From positions 1-24,269 of the IMG/VR virus record IMGVR_UViG_3300020056_000161: a DNA stretch of 24,269 nucleotides; one strand, written 5' to 3'. Under the pieces are notes generated by a model that was given only the letters and a program-made list of their open reading frames with translations, was not told the DNA's origin and searched no databases. The translations under genes and the position numbers were made by a program. Origin of the DNA: a virus. This document shows positions 1-20,837 of this stretch, in pieces. Position 1 is the stretch's first letter. Each line of letters starts with the position of its first letter.

Positions 1-3000
1 ATAAACATTATATTTTACACCATTTTCAAATGGTTTTGATAAGTTGAAAATTAACGTAGAGCCATCAGTTTCAAATACTTCTTCTTCAAAAGTATCATCA
101 TAGACGTCCCATTGTCCGTCATACCATTTATCAGTATCCCACCCTGGAGGTGCACCAAACTCAAAGCTCTTGACTTCTACTCCACCGTAGTCAACACCTT
201 CCATTAACTGCGAAACATCTTTACCTATTTGTCCGCTAGTTGGATTATAGAACAAGTTAATTCTATCCTGTGCTTGTAATAAGTTAATAGACTTTTTGTA
301 GTTTACTTCTACTTCTAAGTTGTTTGCTGGCGGATCAATAAAACTAATTTTACCATAGTATAATAATGTATCTGGATCATACGTATTTTCGTAATCGTAT
401 TCACTATTTAGAACCAATTCACCATTAACTAATACTTCAACAGTATTGGTTCTCATGTCCATTGGCCATTTTAATGTAAATTCTGTTTGTGAACCAGTAG
501 CAGCAAATGTTTCAGATTCATCTAGTTGTGTAATAAAGAAGTTTCCTGATACTCTATCAAATTTGATAATAGTATGCATATTTCTTACTTTACTATCTCC
601 TAGTACAGCGGTAAGTTTTGCTTCTCTGCCACCTTCACTTATTGTGCCATTGATTGTAATTTCAGGACTAGTATAATAGTTTCCGCCTTGATTAATAAGT
701 TTTACACTTGAAATTTTACCGCCTGGGCCAAGGCTAACTTCTGCTGTTGCTGTTCCTTCAATATCAATAATTGGAGCAAACTCATATCCTTCGCCTGCAT
801 CACTAATTTGTATGTCAACAACTTTGTAAGAAGAATTTTCTAACCAGAATCTTTCTGGATAGTTAACAAATCTTTCACCTTGTCCTGTAAGTATGTTGTT
901 TAACAATCTTACATTATTTGTTTCAATGGTTTGTGTGATATTATCATATCTTGGTGAACTATCAAAGTCTGTTACAACACTAGAACTATTTTCTAAGTTG
1001 TCATAGGTTGACAAATACTCTCTAATAGAAGATTTGTAAGGTTTAACTTCTTGAATATATTCTTCATAGCTTTCAAGACTATCATTTTTAAATGTAACTT
1101 TTTGCTCTAGGCTACCTACATTATGTTTAGCTTTGACAAAACTTGTTTTAAACGCCCAGTCAACATATCCTTGTTCTGCAAACACATAACGCAAACTTGC
1201 AAAGAACAATTTGTTATATTCGTCTGCTAAGTCATTTACAAGAATATCTTCTTTTAATGCTTGCATAATAATTCTAATTTCTTCGACTGGTTGACTATCA
1301 AAGAATTGTGTATCAAATGTTTGGGTGTCAAATCCTACTCTACTATCCTCTAAGTTATATAGATTCTCTGTAAACTGTAGTGTGCCGTTTTGTCTACCAA
1401 TTGTTTTGTAATTAATAGTATAATCAGTAGTATCTTCATTGTTAATTTTTTCTAAAAGAAGCCAACCTTCGCCGCCAACATTCAAAATTTTAACAATATC
1501 ACCAAATTGGTCATCAAGACTTTCTAATTCGTAGCTTTGATCAATAACATGGTCAATTTCAGTAAATCTATTGTAACCTTCTGCATACCAATCTACATAT
1601 GTCCAGTAACGAGTTACATCATACGCTTGGCTGTTTACTCTTATCCAGCCGCCAGTTGCATCATTTCTATTATACAACGACCATCTACCTCTAATCTGGC
1701 TATCAGCAACAACTAGTGCAGCAAAAGGCCTAACAATTATCTCAGTATTGTCGCCATAGTTATTTCCGTATTCTTCAACTGTAGCAGTATCAATGCCTCC
1801 TTGTGCGTTAATAGTAAATTTAATTTCAGCACCTGAGCCTGTTCCTTCAATAGTATATGTTGGAGGGACTCTATATCCTCTGCCAGGATTAGTAATTTCT
1901 ACTCTAATAAGTTTTCCGTTTTCCACAACTGGTGTAATAACTGCTGTTTCAGCTCTAGCAACACCAATGAAGTCTAAATCAATTTCTGTATCTACAGTAA
2001 CATCAAACAATCCTGTAGTTGCACTAGGTTGAGGATCAACATCAAGCAGTTTGGTTATATTCTTTTCTTCTTCAATTAAATTTTCTATTAGAACAGAATT
2101 AACTCTGTCTACTAATTGCTTTAATGCTTCTGTTCGGTTAATAAACCATCCCTGTCTAGGCTTGTTTAATATGCCAAAACGTTCTCTTGGAGATAAATTA
2201 GGATCAGGTACAGGTCTTGATTGGCGATCATAACCAACTAAACTATCAATCCATTTATTTTCAATTTCCATATATGGAGAACTTGTGCCTAATCCTTCAG
2301 TTAATATCTGATATTGATTATGAATATTACTGTCAGGTTCACTAAATGTCCAGTATTGTATGTTTAAAACAATATCGCTATCGTTCATTAGATCTTTACA
2401 ATTATGAAGTGAAAATTCGCCGTTACCAAAGAACGATGCAAAACTGTATCCCGCAGCTTCTGGATCTGAAATTAGACTTGCAATAGTTTGTACGCTCATT
2501 GATCTATTTTCAACATTAGGTATAGTAGTTTTATTTTTAACCCAGAAGTAAAATAGTTTATTAAATTTTTGTGCTATTTCATCATATACACGTTTTTCAA
2601 CAAATGCTGAATCACCGTGTAATGTAGTCCCTGTGATTCCGTTAATTTCGCCTTCTGGTTGAGCTGATAGTGTATCCCAGACACTAGGTAATACTTTACT
2701 TTCTACCCATTCATACACATCAATAGAGCCACCTGGGACAACTCTATTGTTGTTGTTTGTTTTATAAATTATGTTGCCTTGTCTAATATCAAAAAACTTT
2801 GCCGGTTTTAGATCCCACCAAACTTGGCCAACTTGTTGTTCGCCCCAGTTTCCAAATTCATTAATTCTCGCATTAGTGCTATTTCCTCTATTATAGATTG
2901 CAGGATCAAACATTGTTTTATAGCGAATTTCTTGATCTGCAGGACCTGCAATTTTACCTTGCATAACATCAATGTAATCTAAGTTTTGTACAACAATATT

Positions 3001-6000
3001 TTTCTCTTTGTTGTAAAGCATTACACGTTTGATCTTAGATAAATCTGCTGGAAGATCTGGCTGTCTATGTGTTGACCAAATTGGATTAGTAACATCTCTT
3101 CTATAATCAAGCACTAGTCCTTCTTTACCGTCACTGTTAGCATATTTAGGCAATGACATGTAAATATGATTACCTTTGGCTGTAATATTTCTTCCAAAGA
3201 ATTTAGCACCAGGATCATTAAAGTCTAATGTTTGTCCAAATACTAGTGTTTCATTTAGTCTTTCATAAACATATACAACTCCGTTGTTTGCAATTTCATT
3301 TCTAAATGTTGTAAACTCATTGTCAAAAGTTGTTGTTTCAACAACTTCACTATCGGTATCTAAAATATACTTCTTACCTGGCTCATTGTTGCCAGGATAT
3401 AATCTATCTCTAAAACCGTCAAAACGTGTAACATCGTCGCTGCTTGCATTAAATGCACTAGCAAATAGTGTATTTCCGTCAAAGTCTAATTCTGCACCAA
3501 AATCTTCTCCTCTTACAGGAGCAGTGCTTAGTAATGTTTGTGAAAGTTCAAACTGTCCATTAACTTGCTTGTAGATATAGATCTTTCCAGACTCTTCTAC
3601 AGTAGTATCACCATTAGGTGCACCAACAGCAATTAGTTTTCCATCTTGGCTGATACTAACTGATGCGCCAAATTCACTGTTTATATCATCAGCAAGAATT
3701 TCTTGTGACTTTTGATAGTTGTCGTTTTGGTTTCTATAAACTATTACTCTGTTTGCTTCGCCGTCATATCTAGCAACAACTACTAATACTTCGCCGTTGT
3801 CAGTTACATCAAACTCTTGTCCAAACTCAACTAAGTTATCCATTGAAATTTGTAATGAACTGTCGTTACCTGCAACATATTGTGTATCATTAGGCACATA
3901 TCCTAAGAAATCTACACTACGGATATTATCATTTGTTGACACTTCCCAGTCAAGTATGTTAAACTGTGCTGAAGGATCATCAGGATTATCAGCATTGCCT
4001 TGAATATTTGTTTTAGCAGTATAAAATTCTCCATCTAAGAAAACAATATCACCTACATAATAATTTCTTTCAGGTGAAAATTCTCCTTTAAATCTTTTAT
4101 CTTTAGCAAGTTCCCAATTATACTCAACGCCTTCTTCATCTGTACCATTGTTAACAAAATATATTCTGCCAGGGTTTGAAGGTGTTCCGTTACCTCTACA
4201 TCCAATAAATGCTTTATACAAGTCACCACGTTTTGCCATTTTTATTTTGCTGCCAATGCCAAGACCATCTATTAGATCAGGTACAATAAATGTTCCTACA
4301 CTAGTAAATGTAGAAATATTTTCTCTTGCATAAACTGTATACATTCCAGAATTTGTAAATCCGTTTGATATACCATCGCCACTAGTAGGAATTCTAAACA
4401 CTTCTTTCCAGTCAAAGTTTGTTTGATCTGGAATATTAGGATTAGTAGGTAAACCTAATATTTCGAAGTCTTTGTAAATTACATATTCTGCATCTTTAAT
4501 TGTATCTGTGTTTGGTACAGGCTCTAGTACACCAGGTAATTGGAACACACATAATTTACCAATGCCAATTTCATCCTGTCCTAGAGAAGTTTCTTTAATA
4601 TCACCTAATGTTCTAGTTACAGAATAAATTGGACTTGGATCATTAGGATCTCCTAAGAATTCGATATCACCACTTGCACCGTGGTTAGTACCTAAAGACC
4701 AATTGCCTACTTTGCTGCTTACAAAGATAGTTGCATTAATACCGTTTCTTTGATAAAATTCTACTTTTGCTGTTGCACCAGTTACACGGTCTCTAACAAA
4801 TTGTCCAACTCTTGGTTCAAACGGTCTACCAAAATCATCTGTTTCTTCTAATTCAAAATCAATGTATCCGTCCCAAAGTCCAACAAGTTCATGTTTTTTG
4901 TTCACATTGATATAAGGTAAACCTATTTCTGTAATATCTACAAACGATCCATCTATAAAACTTGGCAATCTATAAACTTCAACACCAATAGTATCACCTA
5001 TTTCTAAATTGTCAGTTAAACTCTTAGGTGCTCTCATAACAAATAGATCACTTAGTATAGGATCTAGTTCTCCGTATGCACCTGGTGAACCCTGATATGA
5101 TAGTGTTCTAATATAAGAGTGATCACTATTAGCACCACTAAAGATGTCATCGTTAGCATAGTCAATTACGTTGCCGCCTGCTGCACCTGGATCTTCTTTT
5201 CCGTTTGGAATTACATTATATACTGCTAACGCACGACCTTCGTCTTCATTGTTTGTTGTAGGCAAATAAGTGCCATTAGTATTAAACCACCAGTATCCAC
5301 CAAGGTCATCGCTAGTATCTACTTCTTCTTCGACAGGTGCAACTCTTTGGAATTCGCCGACAAACTCACCTGTTTCTAAGAACAACGATCCTGATACTGG
5401 CCATCTACCAACAGAACCTTTAACATATATTGTAGTTCTACCTTCGTCAGTATAAGAATAAGCTACATAGCCACTAGCGCCTATAGTGTCAACTTGCAAC
5501 TCATCTCCTGGAACTGTGCTTACACTATTAACATAAAGAACAGCATCAACTTTTTCAACAATAGTTAAACCACTTTCTAAATATTCTTCATTAATATTAT
5601 CGTATTCGGCATCAAACGGCTGTCTAGGAGTAGCAGGTGCTTCTTGGTTTGCACTCGTTGTTAGATACCAGTCTAAGAAAACAGTATCTCCTGGACCAGT
5701 TGCAATGTATGCATCTGCAGGTGCTCTTACAAGAATATGATCCGTTTCATCTTGTGCATCTGTAAACGGATAATTACCTGTTATTAAATTATTAAAGGTT
5801 ATTTCTGCTTGTGTAATATTGTTACCTTGAATTACTTCAATGATAGAACCAAAACTACCAAATGGTTGACTATCTCTAGCACCTTCAATATCAACTACTG
5901 CTTCCCATAGGCTGTCACTAAAACGAACAATTTCAGTATTTTCATAATCAGCATTAGGATCATAGTTTCCTTTAAATTTACTTTTTACATTGCTTGCATC

Positions 6001-9000
6001 AGGCGACCCTGCAATTATAAATTTTCCATCTGAACTAACTGCTACGCCTTCGCCAAACGCAATTCCGCCATCGGATAAATTTTCAGGTGGCTCAATAATT
6101 TGTGTAAACTGGAAGTTTTGATTGTTTCCGCCTCGAGTATACATGAAGATTTTACCGTTACCGTCAGCAGTCGGCGATGCTAGTGCCATAGTAACATTTC
6201 TTCCGTCTACTGCAAGTGCTTGACCAAAGTTATTGTTAGCACCAGTATCTTCTGCAGGTATTTTTTGTAGTAAGTTATATGATTGTGAATTTTTTAGCAC
6301 TTTCCATTTGCTTGTATCATCTTCATCAATCCATATAAGTGTGTCTTTGTCAATACCCTGTTGTGCTAATTTGTTTGCTTCTTGATAATTAGCTACTCTG
6401 ACTGGTACAAATTTAGTTACAATGCCATCACATGCATTAATATCTTCAATAACTTCATTAGTTTCAATTACTACTTTGTTTAATGTAACATCTAATACTT
6501 TATAAAATCCTTCAACAGGTTCTGTAGTTTGAGTTGAAATAGGATACGTACTATCAGTAGTCGCTCTATCTGTTACTATTAAATCGTATAGACCTATAAC
6601 ATCACCTACTTTAATGTCAGATGGGGCATTATCTAAAGTTACAATAAACTGGTTTTTATCTTCTGCACCAATACTAACAGCGTTAGCATTACCTTGAACT
6701 GATAATACTTTTCGATCTGTGATAGTATGTTGATATACATTCCAAGATTGATTTTCGGTGCTTATCCATACATAATTTTTATTTTTAATATCATTAAATT
6801 TTTGATCAAGTATATCATAATAATCACCTAGTGCAAGGGCTACATCATCTAAGTGTACAAAGCCTGCTGTTCTTGTAAACTGTGGCAACAGTTCAGTTCT
6901 TGGTAAAAAGTCATTAGTATAATTTTTTGGTTTTCTAAATACTTCAAAATCTTTAATTCTATAAACTAAATCTGTATCTGCAGAATCTTGATTTGTTAAT
7001 GCTATAGGCTGTGGGTCGGCTCTATATTTTAGTTCATCTAGAGCTAATTCTACTTCATCAAAACCTTCGGCTGCACCGTACTGTGCTTGTTTAATTGCCC
7101 ATTCTTCGTAAAACTCAAGACTTTCTTTATCTGCACTGCTGAGTACATCAAACAGTTTATCAAGACTATTACGTGTTCCTTTGTCAGCAATCATACCTTG
7201 ATAAAACTTATATTGGCTTACTTCGTCATTAACAATATTTTCTAAATACTGTCTTTTTTGATATCCAATTAAATGTTGAGCAAGCTGTTGCTGATCAACA
7301 TCAAAGTTGTCTGTGTCTAAACTATAAAAGTCTGCAAACTGGTTAACTTTATATTCAAAGTTAGAAGTCATAGTTGACTCAGGCTTACTGGAAAGTCTTG
7401 TCCATTCTTCACTATTAAATGTTTCAGCACCTATTACTTTAGCATCAGCAGTATAATAAAATTCTTTATACTTTATAAGATCGCCAATATCATAATCTGT
7501 CCACTGCTGCCATTCTCTAACTTTAGCTTCATTATATATAAAGCCTGGAATATTTAAACTGCCATCCCAATCAGTTGTTTTATAACCTAGTACCTTTATT
7601 CTTTCTTGTCTATAACCTGTGCTTGGTTGATAGATGACATCACCAAAAACACTAGTATTGTCTATAAGAACTACATGCTCTTTTTGTACTACTGGTAATT
7701 TAATAGCATAAACACCGTCTAAAGAGTTTCTAGGCTGAACTCGCATCTTATTAGGATCAGTTCTATTAATTCTTGTAAACTCGTCAGTTAGTTTTGTGCC
7801 ATCTGCTTTTAATAAACTATATCCATAGAAGTTATCAAAAATATTATCAACAACACTGTATTCAGTTTCAAAGTTAATTTCATCAGCAACTGGACTCATT
7901 GCAATAATTGCACCTGCTGCCCAATTCTGTGTTGACCAGAACATAAATTCTCTACAACTATTTTTCCAATCAGATATTACTTGAGCATCTCCGTCAAAGA
8001 ATTCAAATCTAAATCCTTCTGATTTTAGGAAACTTTGATATCCAAGTAAAAAGTCTACAACTTCTTGTATTGTGTTTAATACCGATCCGTATGGAAGGAT
8101 TTCTACATTATTTGTATCAAAATTTTCTCTAAAAAATGCTTCGCTGCCGCCAGTTGTTGGTAACTTAGGTATTTTAACATACTTGCTTGGATCGAAAGTT
8201 GATGACGCTGTATGTGTTTGAAGAACTTTAAAGAATGTTCCTTGGAACTGGATATTTTTGCCTTCAATATAAGTTTGTAAAGGTTCCCATTCCGTAAACG
8301 GTTCACTTATGCCGCCAACATTTACAAATACATCTTTTGTTGTAGGCAATGCTCTATGATATTTAAATGCAGGTGTTTCTGAATTATAACCTCTAATAAC
8401 AAACCCAAAAGTTTCTTTTTGTACAATTACACCACTATAGTTTACTAATTTTAATGCACTACTAGTGTTTAAAATAATATTATAGTTTTCTTCAGGAACA
8501 AACACATTACCTTTGTTTAATGGCGTTCTACTATCAAGTATAAGTTTAAATTTACTCTTATCAGTAAATCCGCCTAATTTAAATCCAAGATAATTTTTTA
8601 TAGATTTTAATCTTTTTCCATATTGTTTAAATGATGCAGTAACATTACTAGACATATAGTTTGCAATATAATTTACTAAACCACTAGTAAGTACTTCGTT
8701 AGGATCCTCTGAAGTATTTGGAAAAACAAGATCAGTAGTCGATATATGATCTCCAGTTGGAGTATATATTAATTGACCTAATTTATTTCTAACTTGTCGT
8801 GATCTGTCAAAACCTGCAGAGAGCAGTTGTGCAGGGTTATTAGTTAACCAACTTGTTAATATTGCAAAAGGATAATCTGAGCTTCTTCTCCATGCACTTT
8901 CTACAGGAGCATTATCACCAAAACTAAATGATCCGTCAATACCTGTACTATCATAACTTACAGGTAAATTAGCGTTTGAAGGACTTAGCAAATTACCTTC

Positions 9001-12000
9001 TGCATCAACCGGCAAGTATTGATATATTCCAGGGCGAGCATATTTTTTATTAATTATAAAAGGTTTATTTGGTTCTCTAATTATTCCCTTTTCAATATCT
9101 TCCCATAATAATCTATTTTCACTTGTATAAGGTGCTGGACCATATTGTTCATTCCACCAAGTTGGTTTAATTGTAAATCCAAGCATTTCCCAAGGATGTG
9201 TATGAGGACGATCAGTATCGTACATATTAATGTAAGCACCTCTCCACCATCCAGGTAGTTTTTGTCCATTTGGTCCTCTCATACCTTTATAGTTAAAACT
9301 AAATGAATCTAATCTATTAAAGTATTTGTGTTCTGTATAATCTTCGTCAACTAGTGTTAACCACTGAACAAAGTCTGTAATCATTGGAGAATAAATTTCT
9401 TCTCTTGAGAAACCTGTATCTCTATAATTACCGCTTACATAATTGTTTATATCTAAAACTGTAGGATCATATTTTACTTTTATATTATTAAATATTCTAC
9501 GTTCTAAGTCTAAAATTAAATCATCTCTAAAGTCTCCGTATGCTCTAATAATGCTTCCGTCGTGACCTTGAAGCATAAGCGGAGAATTAGGATAAGAATT
9601 GTCGTAATAAAGTGCTGGTTCGTATAAAGGATACAACCCTAACTTAGTTGGTGTTGGAGGAATATATGAACCATTTGTAGTTTCATATTCGTTAATTTCA
9701 ATTATATCATTAAATGCTTTTTCAGCAGTAATTTCTAAATAACCTTCATCATTAAAAACATAATCTTTATTATGCAATAATTGCACACCATTAATATAAA
9801 CCGTTACTGCTCTAGTGTTTAATGTTTTTAAATTAAAAGGTGTTTTTAGTGCAAAAAACTCTGCGTCAGGATCTTCTACTGTAATTCTTGTTGTAATGCT
9901 TGGTCCGTGTGCTGCCATGTCACTAAAATAAAATGGCATGCTATTAGTCTTATCCTTGACAATTTCTCGTATAATAACATCAACGTGTTGCTTTGTTGGA
10001 CCTTCATATCCTAGCGTTTCTGCTGTTTCTAAAAAGAGGCGTTTAAATTTACCATATTCTTTTCTAGCAAAACGCATTGCATTAATAATATTACTTTCTC
10101 TGTCTAGCAAACTAAACATTGATAAGTTTAATGGAGAACTATTTTTTATGAACTTTCTTCCAAATACACTTTGGTTTGCAATATCTCTAAGATTACTAGG
10201 TCCTGGGAATGTTCCTATATAATTTGGAACGTTTTCTGTAATAGTAGAAACGTGTTCTGTTACTTCTCCAAGTGTAAATTCTGCAACGTTTTCGTTTAAC
10301 GGATTGCGTTCTAAGTTATGTGCAATTTCATAATAACCATTTGAATTTTTTGGAGTAGCAGTTTTAGAAGTTATAACAATATTTGCATCACTTTCAAGTT
10401 TGTTTAAAAAATTAACTGCTTTAATCTTATCAGCTGTGTCGATTAACTCGTAATCAATTCCTTCAGTTTGAATACGATCGTTAACAAAAACTTTTACTTC
10501 TAAGTCTGAAATTAATGCAGACTTATTATAACAATTAATTGGATAGTTTATTCTTGTTCCGTCGTTAACATAACGTAATACAACATCCTGCTTTGAAAGT
10601 TCATTTGCTTTTTCGTATCTTCCAACTGTTTTGTATTGATTTCTTTCATTAAATTTTCGCAGATATCCTGCTTTTGCATTAATTGTATATGTGATGTCGT
10701 TTATTTGATATTCGTAAGAATCACTATTATAATTAAAATCAAATAAAATATCACCTACGTTGTCAATACTTCTATAAGATAGCGGAAATCCTAGAACAGT
10801 ATCATTGCTTCCTGTGCCTTCTTTATAACTAAAGAGTTTGGTTCCTCTAAAATTATTTGCAGGATATTGAACAAGATCTGAAAAACTATACCCCGAAGTG
10901 TCAAATAAATCAAATAATGGTGGCTGGTTTGTGCCTACTTTTTCTTGCGCTCTATTCCAGTTATTACCGTCATAATACCAAAGAGATCCTGCATAGTCTT
11001 CTCCTTTGGTTACAAGAACATTTTCGTTAGGTGATGGTTCTGAATCTTCTGTAGGAACAAGAGTGATTTGTCCTTGATCTCCGGCTCCTCTAAATTGAAT
11101 AAATTTTACTTCGAAAATTTTACCTTGAACTAATGGATCTGTATCTGCAAGAAAAATAATACGCATTCCTTCAGATAACTGTACACTGTCAATATTGTAA
11201 CCTAAGCTACCTTCAATTGTACTAAATGCATCTGTAGTAAAATTATCAATTAGATCAATTACTTGTTTTGACTTTGTACCAAAGTTGTAAAGTTTTAACC
11301 CTGACTCAAATTCAATAATAGGTCTGTTAGCACGTTGAGACTGATCAATTTGATCGCCAGAGCCAAGTATGCTTGCTGCTAGTTCAATAACGTCTTTGTG
11401 GAACCAACGATTGTATCGTGACCAAAAGTTTCCGTCTGGACTAGAACGATTAATTGTAATGTAATCTTTATCTCTAGGATATCCTGTTGCTGTACCAAAG
11501 GGTAATCTGTCAAAACCCTCTTCGTTGTCAAATGGCACAACTAAGTCAATACCAACTGGAAACGAAACTTCAACGTCAATGTCAGAAACTAATTTAATTT
11601 CATCGCCAACACCTTCAACATACCATTCTGAATTTTGATATATTTCAGGTGATACATCGCCTTCAAAACGAATTTTTAGTCCGTTAGTCAAACTCCATTC
11701 ATCTCGTGTTTGATAATATTTTTTGCCAAGTATTTCAGCTTCTACGTCAATCACTGTTGCTTCTGATTGATTAGCAACTTTAATAATGCCGCCGACATTA
11801 ACATCATTTTCTGCTACATAAAATATTTCTGACGGTGTATCAGGTCCAAGGGTTATTTCGATAATACCTTGTTCTACTGCTTGAGCACTAATGTCTTTTG
11901 TAATTAAAAATTCTTCGTCTAGCGTTCTTGCAGTTTTGAATGTAAGAGGTAACCCAGGTGTATTAACTTCGAAAACATATTTTACACCTCTATACAATTT

Positions 12001-12588
12001 TAACACAGGGTTATTTGTTAATCCGTCTGGGGTAAAGATATAACTATAATCGCCTAATGCTTCTTGTATATCAACTTTATATGTGCTAGTAATTTCCTTT
12101 TCTTCACCTGGAACAACAACAGTTTGTGGTCCATTTGGTAGCCAATAGTACTCACGGAAGTTTGCAAACTTATCCCAATCAATATGAGGGTTCCATGCAT
12201 AAAATTCTTGTTTATTATTTCGACTATGGTTGTTATTTGTTCCGCCAAAGTTAGCAATTTGATTTATATAATCTCTGTATTCAGCGTAAAATTCAACATT
12301 ATCTAAATCGTCTTTAACAACAGCAACAGGTTCTAATTGATAATGTGCTCTTTCATTAGAAATTTCGTCAACATAGTTGTCACTGCTTTTAAATGCTTTA
12401 GCAGTTTTTCTACCAACATATCCGTTGATTTTTTGTGCAACACCCGGCTGTATTAGTTGGTCTAATGTTGACTGTAAAAACTTTTGGTTCTTATCAGATC
12501 TAAAATATTTTGGAAGGTGATAAGAACTTGTTCTTTTTTGTTTACCTTCGCCTGGTAATGGAAATTCGTTTTGATCTTCGTTAGCCAT
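1..12588 (-). CDS. Giant virion structural protein (at least 4196 aa, C-terminus outside window), in the gene 7 position after gp6
   Basis: The frame opens with ATG at 12588-12586 and I read it through to base 1 without a stop, so the protein exceeds 4196 residues. The ATG overlaps the gp6 stop as TAATG. A strong GGAGG lies 12 bases upstream, inside the last gp6 codons, and an in-frame TAG at 12597-12595 rules out an earlier start. Visible parts: an N-terminal region with wedge-like context (1-560); a block with PTPTKLGLYPLYEP near 979 and RPHTHPWEML near 1127; a GD..Y..YYTA motif near 1700; FG-GAP-like motifs between about 2118 and 3177; GxGY repeats near 3570 and 3930; and VxVxxNG sandwich modules near 700, 920 and 4040. 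The wording resembles giant structural proteins of marine T4-like phages (from memory, not searched). By position it replaces T4 gp7, the wedge initiator, but I see no decisive gp7 similarity. It probably acts in the outer baseplate or host-adsorption apparatus. Structural role is likely; the exact role is unknown. Confidence 0.8.
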   Translation of the reverse strand, partial: MANEDQNEFPLPGEGKQKRTSSYHLPKYFRSDKNQKFLQSTLDQLIQPGVAQKINGYVGRKTAKAFKSSDNYVDEISNERAHYQLEPVAVVKDDLDNVEFYAEYRDYINQIANFGGTNNNHSRNNKQEFYAWNPHIDWDKFANFREYYWLPNGPQTVVVPGEEKEITSTYKVDIQEALGDYSYIFTPDGLTNNPVLKLYRGVKYVFEVNTPGLPLTFKTARTLDEEFLITKDISAQAVEQGIIEITLGPDTPSEIFYVAENDVNVGGIIKVANQSEATVIDVEAEILGKKYYQTRDEWSLTNGLKIRFEGDVSPEIYQNSEWYVEGVGDEIKLVSDIDVEVSFPVGIDLVVPFDNEEGFDRLPFGTATGYPRDKDYITINRSSPDGNFWSRYNRWFHKDVIELAASILGSGDQIDQSQRANRPIIEFESGLKLYNFGTKSKQVIDLIDNFTTDAFSTIEGSLGYNIDSVQLSEGMRIIFLADTDPLVQGKIFEVKFIQFRGAGDQGQITLVPTEDSEPSPNENVLVTKGEDYAGSLWYYDGNNWNRAQEKVGTNQPPLFDLFDTSGYSFSDLVQYPANNFRGTKLFSYKEGTGSNDTVLGFPLSYRSIDNVGDILFDFNYNSDSYEYQINDITYTINAKAGYLRKFNERNQYKTVGRYEKANELSKQDVVLRYVNDGTRINYPINCYNKSALISDLEVKVFVNDRIQTEGIDYELIDTADKIKAVNFLNKLESDANIVITSKTATPKNSNGYYEIAHNLERNPLNENVAEFTLGEVTEHVSTITENVPNYIGTFPGPSNLRDIANQSVFGRKFIKNSSPLNLSMFSLLDRESNIINAMRFARKEYGKFKRLFLETAETLGYEGPTKQHVDVIIREIVKDKTNSMPFYFSDMAAHGPSITTRITVEDPDAEFFALKTPFNLKTLNTRAVTVYINGVQLLHNKDYVFNDEGYLEITAEKAFNDIIEINEYETTNGSYIPPTPTKLGLYPLYEPALYYDNSYPNSPLMLQGHDGSIIRAYGDFRDDLILDLERRIFNNIKVKYDPTVLDINNYVSGNYRDTGFSREEIYSPMITDFVQWLTLVDEDYTEHKYFNRLDSFSFNYKGMRGPNGQKLPGWWRGAYINMYDTDRPHTHPWEMLGFTIKPTWWNEQYGPAPYTSENRLLWEDIEKGIIREPNKPFIINKKYARPGIYQYLPVDAEGNLLSPSNANLPVSYDSTGIDGSFSFGDNAPVESAWRRSSDYPFAILTSWLTNNPAQLLSAGFDRSRQVRNKLGQLIYTPTGDHISTTDLVFPNTSEDPNEVLTSGLVNYIANYMSSNVTASFKQYGKRLKSIKNYLGFKLGGFTDKSKFKLILDSRTPLNKGNVFVPEENYNIILNTSSALKLVNYSGVIVQKETFGFVIRGYNSETPAFKYHRALPTTKDVFVNVGGISEPFTEWEPLQTYIEGKNIQFQGTFFKVLQTHTASSTFDPSKYVKIPKLPTTGGSEAFFRENFDTNNVEILPYGSVLNTIQEVVDFLLGYQSFLKSEGFRFEFFDGDAQVISDWKNSCREFMFWSTQNWAAGAIIAMSPVADEINFETEYSVVDNIFDNFYGYSLLKADGTKLTDEFTRINRTDPNKMRVQPRNSLDGVYAIKLPVVQKEHVVLIDNTSVFGDVIYQPSTGYRQERIKVLGYKTTDWDGSLNIPGFIYNEAKVREWQQWTDYDIGDLIKYKEFYYTADAKVIGAETFNSEEWTRLSSKPESTMTSNFEYKVNQFADFYSLDTDNFDVDQQQLAQHLIGYQKRQYLENIVNDEVSQYKFYQGMIADKGTRNSLDKLFDVLSSADKESLEFYEEWAIKQAQYGAAEGFDEVELALDELKYRADPQPIALTNQDSADTDLVYRIKDFEVFRKPKNYTNDFLPRTELLPQFTRTAGFVHLDDVALALGDYYDILDQKFNDIKNKNYVWISTENQSWNVYQHTITDRKVLSVQGNANAVSIGAEDKNQFIVTLDNAPSDIKVGDVIGLYDLIVTDRATTDSTYPISTQTTEPVEGFYKVLDVTLNKVVIETNEVIEDINACDGIVTKFVPVRVANYQEANKLAQQGIDKDTLIWIDEDDTSKWKVLKNSQSYNLLQKIPAEDTGANNNFGQALAVDGRNVTMALASPTADGNGKIFMYTRGGNNQNFQFTQIIEPPENLSDGGIAFGEGVAVSSDGKFIIAGSPDASNVKSKFKGNYDPNADYENTEIVRFSDSLWEAVVDIEGARDSQPFGSFGSIIEVIQGNNITQAEITFNNLITGNYPFTDAQDETDHILVRAPADAYIATGPGDTVFLDWYLTTSANQEAPATPRQPFDAEYDNINEEYLESGLTIVEKVDAVLYVNSVSTVPGDELQVDTIGASGYVAYSYTDEGRTTIYVKGSVGRWPVSGSLFLETGEFVGEFQRVAPVEEEVDTSDDLGGYWWFNTNGTYLPTTNNEDEGRALAVYNVIPNGKEDPGAAGGNVIDYANDDIFSGANSDHSYIRTLSYQGSPGAYGELDPILSDLFVMRAPKSLTDNLEIGDTIGVEVYRLPSFIDGSFVDITEIGLPYINVNKKHELVGLWDGYIDFELEETDDFGRPFEPRVGQFVRDRVTGATAKVEFYQRNGINATIFVSSKVGNWSLGTNHGASGDIEFLGDPNDPSPIYSVTRTLGDIKETSLGQDEIGIGKLCVFQLPGVLEPVPNTDTIKDAEYVIYKDFEILGLPTNPNIPDQTNFDWKEVFRIPTSGDGISNGFTNSGMYTVYARENISTFTSVGTFIVPDLIDGLGIGSKIKMAKRGDLYKAFIGCRGNGTPSNPGRIYFVNNGTDEEGVEYNWELAKDKRFKGEFSPERNYYVGDIVFLDGEFYTAKTNIQGNADNPDDPSAQFNILDWEVSTNDNIRSVDFLGYVPNDTQYVAGNDSSLQISMDNLVEFGQEFDVTDNGEVLVVVARYDGEANRVIVYRNQNDNYQKSQEILADDINSEFGASVSISQDGKLIAVGAPNGDTTVEESGKIYIYKQVNGQFELSQTLLSTAPVRGEDFGAELDFDGNTLFASAFNASSDDVTRFDGFRDRLYPGNNEPGKKYILDTDSEVVETTTFDNEFTTFRNEIANNGVVYVYERLNETLVFGQTLDFNDPGAKFFGRNITAKGNHIYMSLPKYANSDGKEGLVLDYRRDVTNPIWSTHRQPDLPADLSKIKRVMLYNKEKNIVVQNLDYIDVMQGKIAGPADQEIRYKTMFDPAIYNRGNSTNARINEFGNWGEQQVGQVWWDLKPAKFFDIRQGNIIYKTNNNNRVVPGGSIDVYEWVESKVLPSVWDTLSAQPEGEINGITGTTLHGDSAFVEKRVYDEIAQKFNKLFYFWVKNKTTIPNVENRSMSVQTIASLISDPEAAGYSFASFFGNGEFSLHNCKDLMNDSDIVLNIQYWTFSEPDSNIHNQYQILTEGLGTSSPYMEIENKWIDSLVGYDRQSRPVPDPNLSPRERFGILNKPRQGWFINRTEALKQLVDRVNSVLIENLIEEEKNITKLLDVDPQPSATTGLFDVTVDTEIDLDFIGVARAETAVITPVVENGKLIRVEITNPGRGYRVPPTYTIEGTGSGAEIKFTINAQGGIDTATVEEYGNNYGDNTEIIVRPFAALVVADSQIRGRWSLYNRNDATGGWIRVNSQAYDVTRYWTYVDWYAEGYNRFTEIDHVIDQSYELESLDDQFGDIVKILNVGGEGWLLLEKINNEDTTDYTINYKTIGRQNGTLQFTENLYNLEDSRVGFDTQTFDTQFFDSQPVEEIRIIMQALKEDILVNDLADEYNKLFFASLRYVFAEQGYVDWAFKTSFVKAKHNVGSLEQKVTFKNDSLESYEEYIQEVKPYKSSIREYLSTYDNLENSSSVVTDFDSSPRYDNITQTIETNNVRLLNNILTGQGERFVNYPERFWLENSSYKVVDIQISDAGEGYEFAPIIDIEGTATAEVSLGPGGKISSVKLINQGGNYYTSPEITINGTISEGGREAKLTAVLGDSKVRNMHTIIKFDRVSGNFFITQLDESETFAATGSQTEFTLKWPMDMRTNTVEVLVNGELVLNSEYDYENTYDPDTLLYYGKISFIDPPANNLEVEVNYKKSINLLQAQDRINLFYNPTSGQIGKDVSQLMEGVDYGGVEVKSFEFGAPPGWDTDKWYDGQWDVYDDTFEEEVFETDGSTLIFNLSKPFENGVKYNVY
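3060..6240 (-). other. Split FG-GAP/integrin-like beta-propeller domain inside the giant protein
   Basis: Seven FG-type motifs are visible in the translated giant frame: NNFGQALAVDG (about residue 2119), FGEGVAVSSDGKFIIAGSP (2178), GIGSKIKMAKRGDLYKAFIG (2777), FGQEFDVTDNGEVLV (2922), EFGASVSISQDGKLIAVGAP (2972), DFGAELDFDGNTLFASAF (3029) and FFGRNITAKGNHIYMSLP (3130). Several are followed by a GKIYIY/GVVYVY-type strand, as in FG-GAP blades. Integrin-like FG-GAP propellers have seven blades and usually bind ligands or calcium. Here blades two and three are separated by about 570 residues. Blade boundaries are my estimate; a six- or eight-bladed fold remains possible. Confidence 0.6.
4270..5990 (-). 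other. About 570-residue insertion between propeller blades 2 and 3
   Basis: This stretch covers residues of about 2200-2773 of the giant protein. It lacks FG-GAP motifs and looks like a set of beta-rich segments, with phrases such as ETDHILVRAPADAYIATGPG, WYLTTSANQE and FVRDRVTGATAKVEFYQRNG. It is acidic, rich in Asn, Gly and Thr, and has no transmembrane segment or coiled coil. The limits are approximate because the second blade lacks a clear closing strand before it. No family is recognised. Confidence 0.45.
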
Positions 12589-15500
12589 TAGAAGCTAATA
12601 CCTCCGTTATTAGAACTGCTCGAAGTAGTACCACTAATTCCATTAGTGATATCTTGTGCTCCGCTTGTAACTGTAGTACTTTGTACGCCTACATTTGGTG
12701 TAGTTGATTTAGATACAACTACGCCTTGTGCTTTTAATTTGGATGCTGTAATTCCATCAATAATATCAATATTATCAACCGTTGCACCGCTAATAAAAAT
12801 TTCGTCTGATTCAGATTTAATTTCATATAGCGATCCAAATGACTGATCGTCTTGAACAGGAACAATTATAAATGCTGCAATGTCTGGTGTTAGTTGAGTC
12901 ATTACATAATTTGCAAGTTCGGAGAAATAAAATGTTTCTCCAAAGTCCCAATTTTCTAATGCAAAAAATTCAGTTATTGCATTAATAACTCTTGTTTTAA
13001 CATCGTTGTCGTTAATAACTTTGTCTGGATTTTTAACAATTTTAAATCTAGCTTGCAAGTCGTCGTTAGCCTCTTGTCCAAATAGTATCTTATACTTAAC
13101 TGGATGATAGATAATTTCATCTGTAAGTGATTTAATTTTGTTTAACGAATTTCCATAATCAATATACAATTGGTCTGAGCTAGGTGGCAACGGTTTTGGT
13201 CCTGATCTTTGTAACAACCATAGCCTAAATTCATTATCATAATTTCTTGTTAGCATGTACATATCAATAAGATTGCTTGCACTAGGATCAATTCTTGATG
13301 AATTGCCTGCTGCATGAATGTATCTAAATTTGATATTGTCTCTACCTAATCTTGCTTTATAATTAGTAGTCAAATTTAACTTTAGTGCTGTTGTATCTAA
13401 TACTTCAAATATGTCTTCGTCTATGTAGTAAAATATTTGACCGTCATCGTAGTTACTAAAAGGTAATATTTCTGATTTGCTGTTTAATACTATAATATCT
13501 TGATTGATATTATTGAAATAGTTAAAATCTTCTACATTGTCTTCTGTTAGATATTTTTTAAATATGATATATTTAGAAGTAGTATTTGTATTTGGTGATA
13601 CAATTTCATCAAACAAATCTGCATCATCAACAATGCCGTCTTCGTCATCGTCAAAATAGCTAACTTCTAATTTTTTACTATCAATGTACCCTTCTGGATC
13701 TCTGTATGCATCAACAATTTCCCATTTAAAGTCTTGTGTAAACGGTGTAGTATTTGCTGTAGGATCTTGAGGATTAATATTTAAAACTGTAATAGTGTCT
13801 TTAACAATTTTACCTGTTTTGTTATTATAAATTTTGTCATTGCTATCATAGTAAAATCTAATTTCGTTATCACTTTCAAATACATAACGCATAGATCTGT
13901 AAGTTACAGAATATGATTCTCCATTTGTTTCAAATAGCAATAACCAACTTGCATCTAATTGTTGGTTAGTTGTATCACCAGTTTTACCTGTAGAAAATGC
14001 TTCGCCAATTGATAAGTTATTTTCAGTTACTAGTTTCCAAGTTGCATCGATTTGATCAAATCTTAGACCAAAAGTTTTATATGCAAAAATTTGATCATAT
14101 AATTGCTGTTTAACACCAGAACCTAAATCATTAGCAAGAGGTGGTTTAACTTCTGCAAGTATTGCATTTGTAGGAATAGTTTCGTTAACTAATACAGCGC
14201 CTAGACCGTCTTCTCTTTCTTCAAATCCAGTACCATTGATGCTAATAATTTTAACCCATTTATAATAAGTATCGCCTACTACACTTGCAGGACCTGATAC
14301 TAGATTTCCGTTTTTATCAAAATGATCTGTGCTTATATCAGGATCATTAGGATTTTCTTTTGCTACATATCCTGGAGATACAAATTTAATAAGTGTGCCT
14401 TCTTTAACTAGTCTTAGAATAGAACTTGTAAACGATCCTAAGGTTGAAGGAATGCCGTCAACGTTTGTAAAGTAGCCCGAAGTGAATTCAGTATCTTTAG
14501 TAGTTTGCTTCCATTTAATGTTTAGATCTCTTGTAAGTATTCTTGGAAACTTATCAAAATAGTAGTTTCTTACTTTTATGTCTTGTAGTATAGGAACAAT
14601 AACATTTTCAACTGCGCCTTCAACATCTGTTCTTGTAGTAAAAGTAAAGTTTCTAATTTTATCTTGATATTCTTTGTACACAACACCGTCGTTGCCATAT
14701 AGTGTTGTTTGACTATATTTTCCAGTAGCATCTACTAGATCAAAGTATCTACTAATACCACTACTTGTTCTGTTAACACTTTTTACTTTTACAATTTGTT
14801 GATTAGTTCCTAGAGGAGCGACTTGATAGTCCTCTCCAGTAATCATTCTATTTTGTGTATAATAAGTGCTTGGAGCTTTTGATTTAATACTCTCTGTAGT
14901 TTCACTTATGGAACTGTTGTCAACAGTATATTTTAAACCATACACTATTGTAATAGTTTCTTCTCTACCTTTTTTAGAAAGATAAGGAATATTTACTGTA
15001 ATATTTCTAAAGTCTTTAGGTCTTACAGTTACACGCTGATTCAATCCTGTTCTAAAGTAAACTTTAAAATTACCTTTTGGAAGATCACCAAATACACCGT
15101 CACTAAAAATTAAACTAATTCTATCATCAACTCTAGTTAAAACACTGAATATATTTCTTTCATTTTTCTGCACAGAATTATAAATGACATTGTTACCTTC
15201 TAATGCTTCTACTTGAGTCCATAATTCTTGCTCATTTCCAATACTGTCTAATTCATATAACCAAACGTCTGTATTGTTAATATTTGGTGTTTCAATTGCA
15301 ACTGTCTGATTGCTGCTTGGATTAGTAATCGAAAACGTGCCTTGGTCTAAAATACCTTGACGGAAATGACTGAAAAATCCTGTGTTGTTGCTTGACGGAC
15401 CTTTACCGTCTTCTCTGTATAAGAATGCAAAGTTGTTTCCTGGGTATGGTGGTTCTTCTAAAATAGTATCAGTAATGTCAGTTGATACTACTTCAAAACG

Positions 15501-16130
15501 TGTTGCACGACCGTCAATAGTTTTAGTAAAACTAAAAGTTGGAACATTGGTATTAATACTGTTAAATCTATACTGTTCGGTGCTAATACCAGCAATATTA
15601 TCTTTTTTGTTTGGTTTACCAAAAGTACCATTTACAGGCAATGCTGTGTTGATTACTTTGATAAATTGCTCATACCAGTTAACATTTGCAGGGTCATTCC
15701 ATACAATAGTTTGGTTTTGTAGATTAACACCGTTGCTGTCAATAATTTCTTCCGAAGTTCTTATGCTGTCAATTTTTAACAGTCCGTTTGCTACTTGATT
15801 ACGCTTTGGATTGTAGGAAAGCAAACGTGCTAAACGTAGTACCGATTCTCTACGTTCAGCAAGTTCTAAGTAGTTTTCACGTGCATTTAGGTCAATGCGG
15901 AAGCTGATGTTTTGTCCAAGGAAAGCAATAAGATCAATTAGTGCAAGGTATTCACTTGACTCTACATAATCGTTAAAATCTTCAGGATAATTTTCCCTTA
16001 GATATTGAATCATTGTTCGACGTAAATTGTCGAAATCGTAACTTTGAAAGTCTGCATTACGGAATGATTGGTAAACACGTTTCCAATCTTCAGTCTGCAA
16101 TAATCTATTTTGTCTATCTGTAGAGGACAT
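12588..16130 (-). CDS. 6: Baseplate wedge protein gp6 (long form, 1180 aa)
   Basis: T4 gp6 dimers form the inner iris ring joining neighbouring wedges. The N-terminus here matches the family: helical segments with SYDFDNLRRTMIQYLRENYP (about 30-50) and an ESSEYLALIDLIAFLGQN phrase (58-75), then RENYLELAERRES and LARLLSYNPKR. A baseplate-J-like core contains TGEDYQVAPLG near 425. The C-terminal FFALENWDFGETFYFSELA region (about 1040-1065) is the conserved end domain. It is nearly twice the length of T4 gp6 (about 660); the extra length lies mainly at about 490-1000. That insert holds a calcium-loop motif (827-838). The last 45 residues are Ser/Thr/Gly rich. ATG is preceded by AAGGA at 16142-16138 with a 7-base spacer. 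The gene follows gp25 after 54 bases and ends in TAATG with the giant gene. Confidence 0.93.
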   Translation of the reverse strand: MSSTDRQNRLLQTEDWKRVYQSFRNADFQSYDFDNLRRTMIQYLRENYPEDFNDYVESSEYLALIDLIAFLGQNISFRIDLNARENYLELAERRESVLRLARLLSYNPKRNQVANGLLKIDSIRTSEEIIDSNGVNLQNQTIVWNDPANVNWYEQFIKVINTALPVNGTFGKPNKKDNIAGISTEQYRFNSINTNVPTFSFTKTIDGRATRFEVVSTDITDTILEEPPYPGNNFAFLYREDGKGPSSNNTGFFSHFRQGILDQGTFSITNPSSNQTVAIETPNINNTDVWLYELDSIGNEQELWTQVEALEGNNVIYNSVQKNERNIFSVLTRVDDRISLIFSDGVFGDLPKGNFKVYFRTGLNQRVTVRPKDFRNITVNIPYLSKKGREETITIVYGLKYTVDNSSISETTESIKSKAPSTYYTQNRMITGEDYQVAPLGTNQQIVKVKSVNRTSSGISRYFDLVDATGKYSQTTLYGNDGVVYKEYQDKIRNFTFTTRTDVEGAVENVIVPILQDIKVRNYYFDKFPRILTRDLNIKWKQTTKDTEFTSGYFTNVDGIPSTLGSFTSSILRLVKEGTLIKFVSPGYVAKENPNDPDISTDHFDKNGNLVSGPASVVGDTYYKWVKIISINGTGFEEREDGLGAVLVNETIPTNAILAEVKPPLANDLGSGVKQQLYDQIFAYKTFGLRFDQIDATWKLVTENNLSIGEAFSTGKTGDTTNQQLDASWLLLFETNGESYSVTYRSMRYVFESDNEIRFYYDSNDKIYNNKTGKIVKDTITVLNINPQDPTANTTPFTQDFKWEIVDAYRDPEGYIDSKKLEVSYFDDDEDGIVDDADLFDEIVSPNTNTTSKYIIFKKYLTEDNVEDFNYFNNINQDIIVLNSKSEILPFSNYDDGQIFYYIDEDIFEVLDTTALKLNLTTNYKARLGRDNIKFRYIHAAGNSSRIDPSASNLIDMYMLTRNYDNEFRLWLLQRSGPKPLPPSSDQLYIDYGNSLNKIKSLTDEIIYHPVKYKILFGQEANDDLQARFKIVKNPDKVINDNDVKTRVINAITEFFALENWDFGETFYFSELANYVMTQLTPDIAAFIIVPVQDDQSFGSLYEIKSESDEIFISGATVDNIDIIDGITASKLKAQGVVVSKSTTPNVGVQSTTVTSGAQDITNGISGTTSSSSNNGGISF
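13617..13652 (-). other. Thrombospondin type-3/dockerin-like calcium loop encoded in gp6
   Basis: Residues 827-838 of gp6 read DDDEDGIVDDAD, an exact fit to the DxDxDGxxDxxD loop that binds calcium in thrombospondin type-3 repeats and related folds. It stands alone and lies in the part of gp6 that T4 lacks. Calcium binding is inferred from the pattern only. Confidence 0.6.
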
Positions 16131-16184
16131 CGGCTATTCCTTGTTTATACAATAATATTTAGCAGATATTAAAAAGTGCGTATA
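16131..16184 (-). promoter_or_regulatory. Intergenic leader of gene 6 with a CTAAATA late-promoter-like element
   Basis: On the minus strand CTAAATA occupies 16162-16156, about 26 bases before the gp6 ATG. It resembles the T4-type late -10 element (TATAAATA, recognised by gp55) and matches the element before gene 48. Late promoters of this class need no -35. The motif is short and AT-rich: from base composition I would expect about five chance copies per strand in this window, and it also occurs inside genes (for example near 13570). The evidence is positional only. Confidence 0.35.
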
Positions 16185-16192
16185 TTATTGTA
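16148..16192 (-). repeat. 11-bp perfect inverted repeat spanning the 25/6 junction
   Basis: TACAATAATAT (16148-16158) is exactly complementary to ATATTATTGTA (16182-16192), with a 23-base spacer. In the structural-operon mRNA this would be an A/U-rich stem-loop that includes the last gp25 codons and stop and ends just before the gp6 ribosome site. There is no U-run after it, so it does not look like an intrinsic terminator. Possible roles are RNA processing, mRNA stability or control of gp6 translation. Confidence 0.5.
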
Positions 16193-16634
16193 GGAAGCCT
16201 GCTTCTTCGTCAAACTTGAACTGAAGCTTCTCTACAATGCTATATGGAAGGTATGCTAATTCACATTCAATAAGTATACCACTTTCATATGAATCAACAG
16301 TTATTTGGTTAACTTGAACCCTTGGATCATAGTTTACAATTCTTGAAACATTGCTTATAATTGCGTTTCTTGCATCGTCTGTTAACGGTTCAAAAAGTAT
16401 GTCCCAAATAATAGTTCCAAATTCAGGATCACTTAGTTTTTCACCTTGGCGAATATGGAAATGATTGATGATATCTTGTTTTATTAGAGCAATATCGTAT
16501 AACACATGTGAACTTGTGTTTTCATCAACTGTGCTGAATCCTTTGTATGTAGGACCAGAATCTGCAATCTTATCATACGTTGTGTTAGATTTAACTTTAA
16601 TTTCTTGGTAAAGATTTTTTTCTAAAGTGCTCAT
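16185..16634 (-). CDS. 25: Baseplate wedge protein gp25
   Basis: gp25 is part of the wedge core that sits by the hub and primes sheath assembly. The family (GPW/gp25) signature is clear: HFHIRQGEKLSDPEFGTIIW (about 58-77), then DILFEPLTDDARNAIISNVSRIV and a YDPRVQVNQITV beta segment. The length, 149 aa, is a little above T4 gp25 (132 aa); the excess is N-terminal. The ATG lies 12 bases after the gp5 stop, and the likely ribosome site AAGG (16648-16645) overlaps that stop codon, so translation is probably coupled to gp5. The gp5-25-6 order is standard for marine T4-like phages. Confidence 0.95.
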   Translation of the reverse strand: MSTLEKNLYQEIKVKSNTTYDKIADSGPTYKGFSTVDENTSSHVLYDIALIKQDIINHFHIRQGEKLSDPEFGTIIWDILFEPLTDDARNAIISNVSRIVNYDPRVQVNQITVDSYESGILIECELAYLPYSIVEKLQFKFDEEAGFLQ

Positions 16635-16646
16635 AACGTATTTACC

Positions 16647-18092
16647 TTAGGTTGGCTTCTTGAATGTATCTGGAACTGATGGGAAAGGTGGTTCAGGTAG
16701 TTCGTCAGTAGTACCGTTTAATAATAGTCCTTGTCGAGCTTCTTCATTTTCAGGATCGTCATAGGGTTTAGCTGCTGTTTCTTCGGGTACAAAGTTTTTA
16801 GGATCAAGATGTTCATGATCTGGCCATGGTTCGTGATGCGGAATACGCACCGGAACACTTGCTGTTCCAGCTTCTTCTGCTGCACCGTCTGAACTGTTCA
16901 TGTAAATCTTGCCATCGGTAGTTTCTCTATGATCGCCACCAGCATAAATGTTTGTATTACCATCTGCTTTTAGTTTGCCGTCGGCATCTGCTTTTATTTC
17001 CCAGTTACCAATAGTGTGTACAAAAAAGTTTCCGTCTGTGGTAATATTCATATTACCTTTTGCTTCAAAATTTATGTCTCTGTCAGCATAAAAATTAATG
17101 TCGTTTTCAGTTCTAAAACTAATGCTGTCTTTTGCATAAACATCAATTTTTCCATTACCTGTCATTTCGATCCAACTGTTGCCGCTACCGTGTGAAATAT
17201 AAATCAAATCTTCAGTATTATGCATTACAATTTGATGACCTTTACGTGTTTTGATACGTATTAGATCATTAGCAGGTAAAGTTACATCGCCGTCTGTTTC
17301 TCCAGCGTCAAAATCAGCATATTCCATTTTATCAGCTTCGTCGCCGCTTGCTGGTTTTTTACGCAATAAAGATGCATCGCCGTCATCCATTACAAATGAA
17401 CTTCCGCCAAGTCTATTAAAAGGACGGTTAACAGATCTTCCAGGTTTGCCGTAAGTAGCTTTTGGTCCATTAAAATCTAACGGTCCAGGAGTACTCCAAC
17501 CAAATACATGACTAGGTGCTTCTCGTCTACCGCTAGATGTATTTGTGCCTCTAATATGATCATCAATTAATCCTGCATCTTCCAATCGTTTTTTCTCGTC
17601 AGGATTAACAGGCTTTAAAAATTTAGTTGGATCTCTACTAGTTCCTTCTTCTTGTTTTTTGTTATATTCACCAACTGGTAATGCTTTGGTATTATCATCT
17701 TTGTTGTAACTTGTAGATGCATAGCCAGGTGTCATAAAGTTTACACCAGTATCAGGAATACAACCTAACCAATAGGCTTTTGAAAAGTCGCCTTCAGGCA
17801 TAACAACAATTACTCTAGTACCTACATCAGGCGGTACTGCCCAAAAACCGTAACTTTTTTGTGTACTAGGATAATCATCATTGTTACTAAGTCCATGATT
17901 GGGTGTTGTTCCAAAAAATGGACTTGCATACTGACAAATAATATAGTCTGTCATATTGCCGCTGCTAGTACGCTTTGTTATTTCAACTTCAATTGAACCC
18001 ATAAAATTTGTGTCAAGATGGTTTACTACTACTCCTACATATATGCCGGAGTTTTGTTGTCGTCTACTTGGGGTTCTTTGTTCTGTTGACAT
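16647..18092 (-). CDS. 5: Baseplate hub spike gp5-like protein (OB fold plus beta-helix, no visible lysozyme domain)
   Basis: gp5 forms the trimeric spike at the tail tip. Residues of about 15-115 form the OB-fold region (GIYVGVVVNHLDTNFMGSIE, later GTRVIVVMPEGDFSKAYWLG). Residues of about 190-245 carry the conserved GWSTPGPLDFNGP and GGSSFVMDDGD phrases. Residues 275-405 are a run of short strands (SISFRTENDINFYADRDINF) typical of the gp5/VgrG beta-helix. The C-terminus is Pro/Glu rich. T4 gp5 (575 aa) carries a lysozyme domain between OB fold and helix; here the 115-270 linker is short and shows no lysozyme motif. The ATG overlaps the preceding stop as TAATG, with only a weak GAGAAC 9 bases upstream, which suggests reinitiation. 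Confidence 0.9.
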   Translation of the reverse strand: MSTEQRTPSRRQQNSGIYVGVVVNHLDTNFMGSIEVEITKRTSSGNMTDYIICQYASPFFGTTPNHGLSNNDDYPSTQKSYGFWAVPPDVGTRVIVVMPEGDFSKAYWLGCIPDTGVNFMTPGYASTSYNKDDNTKALPVGEYNKKQEEGTSRDPTKFLKPVNPDEKKRLEDAGLIDDHIRGTNTSSGRREAPSHVFGWSTPGPLDFNGPKATYGKPGRSVNRPFNRLGGSSFVMDDGDASLLRKKPASGDEADKMEYADFDAGETDGDVTLPANDLIRIKTRKGHQIVMHNTEDLIYISHGSGNSWIEMTGNGKIDVYAKDSISFRTENDINFYADRDINFEAKGNMNITTDGNFFVHTIGNWEIKADADGKLKADGNTNIYAGGDHRETTDGKIYMNSSDGAAEEAGTASVPVRIPHHEPWPDHEHLDPKNFVPEETAAKPYDDPENEEARQGLLLNGTTDELPEPPFPSVPDTFKKPT

Positions 18093-20530: not shown

Positions 20531-20531
20531 A

Positions 20532-20837
20532 TTATATTCCTAGTTGTTGAGCTAGATTTTCGCCTTTTGGTAAAAATATTTTAACACCTGGTACCATATC
20601 GTACACTGGATCTTTTAATACATCCATATTCCTTTGAGCAAAAACCCACCACAATTTTTCTGATCCATATAAATCGTATGCTAACAAGTCGGGTCTAAAT
20701 GTGTATTGTGTTTGTACTGTATACAGTACATCATCTGCTTCTGCAGGAACAGGTCTAATAGATAATACATCTAAGAATTGCCCTTGTACTATTGTTGTTC
20801 GATTCCACGGACTTGTTGCTTCGTATTGTGCTGCCAT
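20532..20837 (-). CDS. 53: Baseplate wedge protein gp53
   Basis: gp53 clamps neighbouring wedge complexes during baseplate assembly. The short family is recognisable from YTFRPDLLAYDLYGSEKLWW (about 46-65), followed by VFAQRNMDVLKDPVYDMVPG and IFLPKG, which reads like a LysM-type small fold. The length is 101 aa against about 196 in T4, so it is a compact version limited to the conserved core. The ATG overlaps the upstream stop as TAATG, with AAGGA (20850-20846) at an 8-base spacer. The next gene begins one base after its TAA. Confidence 0.92.
   Translation of the reverse strand: MAAQYEATSPWNRTTIVQGQFLDVLSIRPVPAEADDVLYTVQTQYTFRPDLLAYDLYGSEKLWWVFAQRNMDVLKDPVYDMVPGVKIFLPKGENLAQQLGI

Follow-up and report, generated by a model that had tools for sequence, protein, structure and literature searches.

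A giant protein gene directly behind baseplate gene 6 of a marine jumbo phage, encoding a candidate wedge subunit in the position of T4 gp7

In T4, the gene directly after gene 6 is gene 7, and in the viral DNA described here the equivalent position is held by a single open frame of several thousand codons. What does this frame encode, and has it replaced or fused the products of T4 genes 7 to 10? The window analyzed is an entire virus record of 24,269 bp, and because it is a complete record the giant gene is truncated, its 3' end cut off by the contig edge. On the minus strand, the frame extends from an ATG at position 12588 to base 1, stop-free over 4,196 codons in the ORF list of the window, where about 275 stops are the chance expectation at 34.6% GC. 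The junction with gene 6 reads ...TTCTAATGGCTAAC..., with the last A of the gene 6 stop, TAA, shared with the ATG of the giant (TAATG). A preliminary description of this DNA had reported an uninterrupted frame of more than 4,196 codons with a TAATG-coupled start, and both observations hold.

The same frame is present in other contigs, at 100% (locus L008), 93 to 95% (L109), 82 to 83% (L091), and 74 to 81% (L023 and L089) identity, and assembly error is excluded because these contigs carry it. Joining L023 and L089, two loci of one 79-kb contig, via 12,572 identical overlapping bases yields an ortholog, ~75% identical, with a complete protein of 5,230 aa and 587 kDa. The stop sought beyond the left edge of the window is therefore seen in a relative, 956 residues past that edge, and the longer relatives have open frames of 4,993 to 5,271 codons. 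Comparison of the window and ortholog frames gives a dN of 0.156 and a dS of 1.19, with dN/dS of ~0.13 overall and of ~0.08 to 0.16 in each 500-residue block, indicating purifying selection along the whole frame. No DNA tandem repeats were found in the window. A chance frame or a misassembly is ruled out by the frames of the relatives, the selection, and the expected stop count. The frame is a genuine gene and covers most of one protein of ~5,200 residues.

Upstream of the giant (1..12588, minus strand), the order of genes is structural protein, gp53, another structural protein, gp5, gp25, gp6. The minus-strand assignments by profile match are a gp53-like wedge subunit (20532..20837), a gp5-like hub protein (16647..18092), a gp25-like wedge subunit (16185..16634), and a gp6-like wedge subunit of 1,180 aa (12588..16130; phrog_10646 and phrog_219), which overlaps the giant by one base. 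Divergent genes in the window encode gp55, gp47, and gp46, the last a cut gene assigned by position only. Gene order in the window is identical in PA5oct, RaK2, and CBB, and the gp25-gp6-giant order is found in these three phages as well as in Phosso, Atu_ph07, and Vibrio 2.275.O. A gp6-sized ORF (1,100 to 1,250 aa) lies immediately upstream of the giant in 75 loci, with the one-base overlap in 63 of the 75, and a gene of 200 to 205 aa is usually found directly behind the giant in the relatives. Phage SCTP-2 (L005) has tandem giants of 3,096 and 3,807 aa (8606-17896 and 17974-29397). Its gene 6 is elsewhere in the genome (positions 231230-234985 of the record), breaking the coupling of gp6 and giant, unlike in the other phages examined; adjacency of the two genes is therefore not absolute.

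The giant matches PHROG 10938, annotated as a virion structural protein, in four stretches (E=0, 1,102.6 bits; profile length, 3,324 positions). Membership in this family is indicated both by the profile match and by a gene position immediately after gp6 within the gp25-gp6 block. Homologues measure 4,555 aa in Phosso, 4,449 in Atu_ph07, 3,857 in PA5oct, 3,807 in SCTP-2, 3,771 in Vibrio 2.275.O, 3,340 in CBB, and 3,326 in RaK2. Residues 1 to 1900 and 3170 to 3880 are common to all jumbo homologues, and residues 1900 to 3170 are variable. In Stenotrophomonas phage RAS14 (L184), a gene for 3,138 aa (10209-19625) behind one for 970 aa weakly resembles the conserved core (E of 1e-7), suggesting that the giant family has a more remote branch.

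Members of this family are virion proteins. CBB_236 was found in CBB virions by mass spectrometry, with 21 unique peptides and 7.72% coverage (PMC5259590). The phAPEC6 protein gp245, of 381.88 kDa, was found in virions with 17 peptides (7.6%) and is listed right after the wedge protein gp244 (PMC7247149). PA5oct gp355 is flagged ESI-MS/MS in its database record. None of these sources gives a function or baseplate place for the homologues. In the marine jumbo phage of the window, the giant is a protein of the tail baseplate, from a family that has already been described and proteomically confirmed.

Giant proteins straight after gene 6 are also known from marine T4-like cyanophages. Products of the post-gene-6 gene measure 7,041 aa in S-E7, 6,737 in S-WAM1, 4,314 in S-CAM7, 4,307 in P-TIM68, 3,048 in S-PM2, and 896 in Melnitz, and the gene in T4-like cyanophages and their relatives is annotated as gp7 or wedge initiator in several records. 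T4-GC969, the cluster of the S-E7 giant, was detected in S-SM1 virions (PMC3037559). With such giants on record in both RaK2-like phages and T4-like cyanophages, the preliminary view of this locus as an unusual departure is not supported.

Several modules are recognizable along the chain, all on the minus strand. The model of residues 1 to 996 is poor (pLDDT 60) and yielded one domain, a cupredoxin-like beta-sandwich at residues 166 to 276 (11761..12093; structure match with Z 10.7, rmsd 2.6, 99 aligned). This domain contains no His, Cys, or Met and hence no copper site, and it is apparently used as a structural module. The core most conserved across all homologues, residues 976 to 1750 (7339..9663), is modeled mostly at pLDDT 80 to 95. 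Taken from a model of residues 960 to 1990 that is good over this core, it has no large PDB match, the only counterparts found there being two small CBM5/12-like domains, and in a viral structure library its only clear match is to its own family. One of the two is a CBM5/12-type module at residues 1433 to 1463 (8200..8292), seen in Pfam above the cut-off and in the structure, and the other a similar fold at residues 1688 to 1736 (7381..7527; 8fqc_Q1, Z 7.5, 45 aligned), which resembles small domains of phage baseplate and fiber structures. The lineage-specific region 1900 to 3170 includes an FG-GAP repeat (Pfam) at residues 2962 to 3006 (3571..3705). Residues 3170 to 3880 (949..3081) form another block that all jumbo homologues conserve, and GxGY beta-modules shared with the cyanophage giants occur at residues 3557 to 3618 (1735..1920) and 3921 to 3982 (643..828). 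Past the window, the C-terminal part of the ortholog contains, by eye, repeated DGST..F.L and VNG stretches. PDB sequence searches with the single sequence and with profiles matched just a module of the Dpo31 tailspike (E of 2.5e-4) in addition to the CBM5/12-type stretch.

Is the giant related to gp7? Profile comparison with T4 gp7, full-length and slice-wise, gave no similarity, a result that says little, as the same method also misses the match between T4 gp7 and its presumed counterpart, P2 gpI. PHROG 964, Gp7_5th, and Gp7_6th were not found in the window's protein. At the level of motifs, the aligned gp7-position proteins, including that of T4, share DFY..KGT..S...LFK.L, and the jumbo family has KGT..S..KLF, with post-KGT spacing equal to that of the gp7-position proteins. 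In the window the motif is KFYQGMIADKGTRNSLDKLFDVLSSA, at residues 1794 to 1819 (7132..7209, minus strand), where K1803 and G1804 are invariant in a nine-member alignment. Against the gp7-position profile, the KGT segment ranks first among 53 windows of the giant, scoring 27.6 (next unrelated window, 18.4; mean, 13.1; standard deviation, 3.6), and a refined comparison gives 29.1, a value reached by none of 200 column-shuffled controls (maximum, 19.0). The match spans 26 residues only, and its score against T4 gp7 alone is weak (18.5). HMM-to-sequence searches produced no significant match (best, 0.065), although the cyanophage gp7-position proteins ranked first, at the motif; the model is of low confidence in the region surrounding it. 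GxGY modules are common to the giant and to nearly all gp7-position genes examined, T4 and OLIVR5 being the exceptions. Sharing of KGT and GxGY points to a link with gp7, as motif-level evidence that is suggestive and not proof.

We consider it probable that the frame encodes a giant third baseplate wedge subunit, in the position of gp7, and that the marine jumbo phage carrying it is a distant relative of T4. The gene is coupled translationally to gene 6, and its product presumably assembles with gp6; gp7 wedge subunits join two gp6 chains in a heterotrimer. In mid-chain, the short helical stretch with KGT is likely to be a remnant of the gp7 wedge core. The rest of the chain consists of beta-rich modules (cupredoxin-like, CBM5/12-like, FG-GAP, GxGY, and a C-terminal tandem of beta-sandwich-like units) that probably form the peripheral frame of the baseplate, where separately encoded fibers may dock. 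T4 gp7 is present as one copy per wedge. If the giant follows the same stoichiometry, six chains of 587 kDa would contribute ~3.5 MDa to the baseplate and could form a large beta-rich skirt tying gp6 to the fibers.

The strongest competitor, which we regard as unlikely, is that the giant is a peripheral baseplate or tail-fiber-like protein unrelated to gp7, located behind gene 6 by chance, with the real gp7 counterpart being another gene that escaped detection. Such a reading draws on the shortness of the KGT match and the lack of full-length gp7 similarity, on a core (residues 976 to 1750) with no large PDB match, and on the SCTP-2 giant, which is not adjacent to gene 6. However, coupling to gene 6 is conserved, the KGT motif and GxGY modules are held in common with gp7-position proteins, and the T4-type gp7 profile has no match in any of the 14 related records.

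Far less probable is a single chain fusing gp7, gp8, and gp9 or gp10 with receptor-binding functions. A mosaic, beta-rich architecture with carbohydrate-binding-type modules would suit a fusion, as would the failure to detect T4-type gp7 and gp8 profiles in the 14 related records. Part of the cyanophage gp8 profile, a sub-module at about positions 186 to 275, also matches inside the giants. Yet this is a generic GxGY beta-module rather than the gp8 fold, and S-E7 also carries it outside its giant, in a frame of 1,392 aa; as it alone accounts for the matches of PHROG 438 (gp8) within the giants, we rejected those as signs of a fused gp8. Profile comparison with T4 gp8, gp9, gp10, gp11, and gp12, full-length and in slices, gave no match in the giant, a negative of little weight given that the method misses T4 gp7 against P2 gpI. 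Among the structure matches listed for the 960 to 1990 model there is no gp7, gp8, or gp10 fold, although one may still be present. Phage-Gp8 (PF09215) was detected neither in the window's protein nor in the 14 related records, while the T4 and S-E7 controls scored above the cut-off, and T4_gp9_10_N (PF07880) is absent from the window's protein in Pfam. S-E7, with an even larger giant, retains gp8 and gp9 as separate genes downstream. The jumbo relatives may lack gp8 or have one that has diverged past recognition, and it is not visibly within the giant.

Fiber proteins have genes of their own behind the giant in relatives. Behind the giant of L089 come a 204-aa protein and then fiber-like proteins of 697 aa (with a Phage Tail Collar domain), 634 aa, and 507 aa. 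These three (15914-21480) have a common N-terminal domain of ~90 residues, with the pattern VEDGTI..TT..L.G.NY.GYG...NENF..LLENF, and differ in their C termini. T4_gp9_10_N is found in other frames of the longer relatives G001, G004, and G007, in some cases below the Pfam cut-off. In G004 (180881-181018) and G001 (136400-136513), this attachment domain lies in open frames of 2,787 and 2,641 codons, so that the phage group has additional giant frames. In L176, from a 275-kb relative, a subtilase-family (S8) gene (1791-3218) adjoins a gp9/10-type gene. Of the preliminary proposal, then, a huge mosaic chain where T4 has gene 7 and the presence of such proteins in virions, by way of the homologues, stand; the replacement or fusion of genes 7 to 10 is not supported. 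Its counter-expectation of separate gp7, gp8, and gp10 homologues elsewhere is borne out for gp9/10-type N termini and not for gp7 or gp8, the profiles of which match in 0 of 14 records.

An enzyme or adhesin for chitin or other glycans, to which the CBM5/12 match over the Pfam cut-off and the two CBM-like folds might point, is very unlikely, as Pfam detects nothing catalytic in the window's protein and phage baseplate and fiber structures often contain small folds of the CBM5/12 kind (Milano, 7-7-1, and the Anabaena injection system).

Members of the giant family occur widely across IMG/VR viral contigs and are among the larger virion protein types, and the window itself adds nothing qualitatively new to it. 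A link to gp7, if true, would explain the seeming lack of gp7 in RaK2-like phages and would mean that wedge proteins can grow from fewer than 1,000 to more than 7,000 residues with one short core motif kept. We raise tentatively, as a possibility we would not yet favor over its opposite, that the RaK2-like giants are true gp7 homologues, with the wedge core placed 1,800 residues deep via N-terminal insertions, and that those of cyanophages grew mainly C-terminally. One superfamily would then have reached giant wedge proteins by two separate routes, with the motif as the first sequence link between them.

Compared with known systems, the giant is like T4 gp7 (1,032 aa) in its position behind gene 6 and in a KGI segment of T4, at residues ~738 to 740, that resembles KGT. 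T4 gp7 is, however, five times shorter, and has nothing detectably similar outside the motif; the Gp7_5th and Gp7_6th domains were not found in the window giant. The PHROG 10938 giants (CBB_236, phAPEC6 gp245, RaK2 ORF070, PA5oct gp355, Atu_ph07 gp180, and that of Phosso) have the same order behind gene 6 and collinear homology over residues 1 to 1900 and 3170 to 3880. They differ in the region from 1900 to 3170, and the window giant has a longer C-terminal tail of beta-modules; its nearest relatives (~5,200 aa) exceed the range of these giants (3,326 to 4,555 aa). Virion presence is a feature of the CBB, phAPEC6, and PA5oct homologues, whereas the window giant is known from its sequence. In the cyanophage giants of the T4-GC969 type, similarity over the full length is absent, KGT lies at residues 197 to 712 rather than 1803, and S-E7 has separate gp8 and gp9 genes behind its giant. 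Like the window giant, these proteins are encoded right after gene 6, are giant, and carry GxGY modules, and the spacing downstream of their KGT motif is identical (KGT-2-S/A-3-LF).
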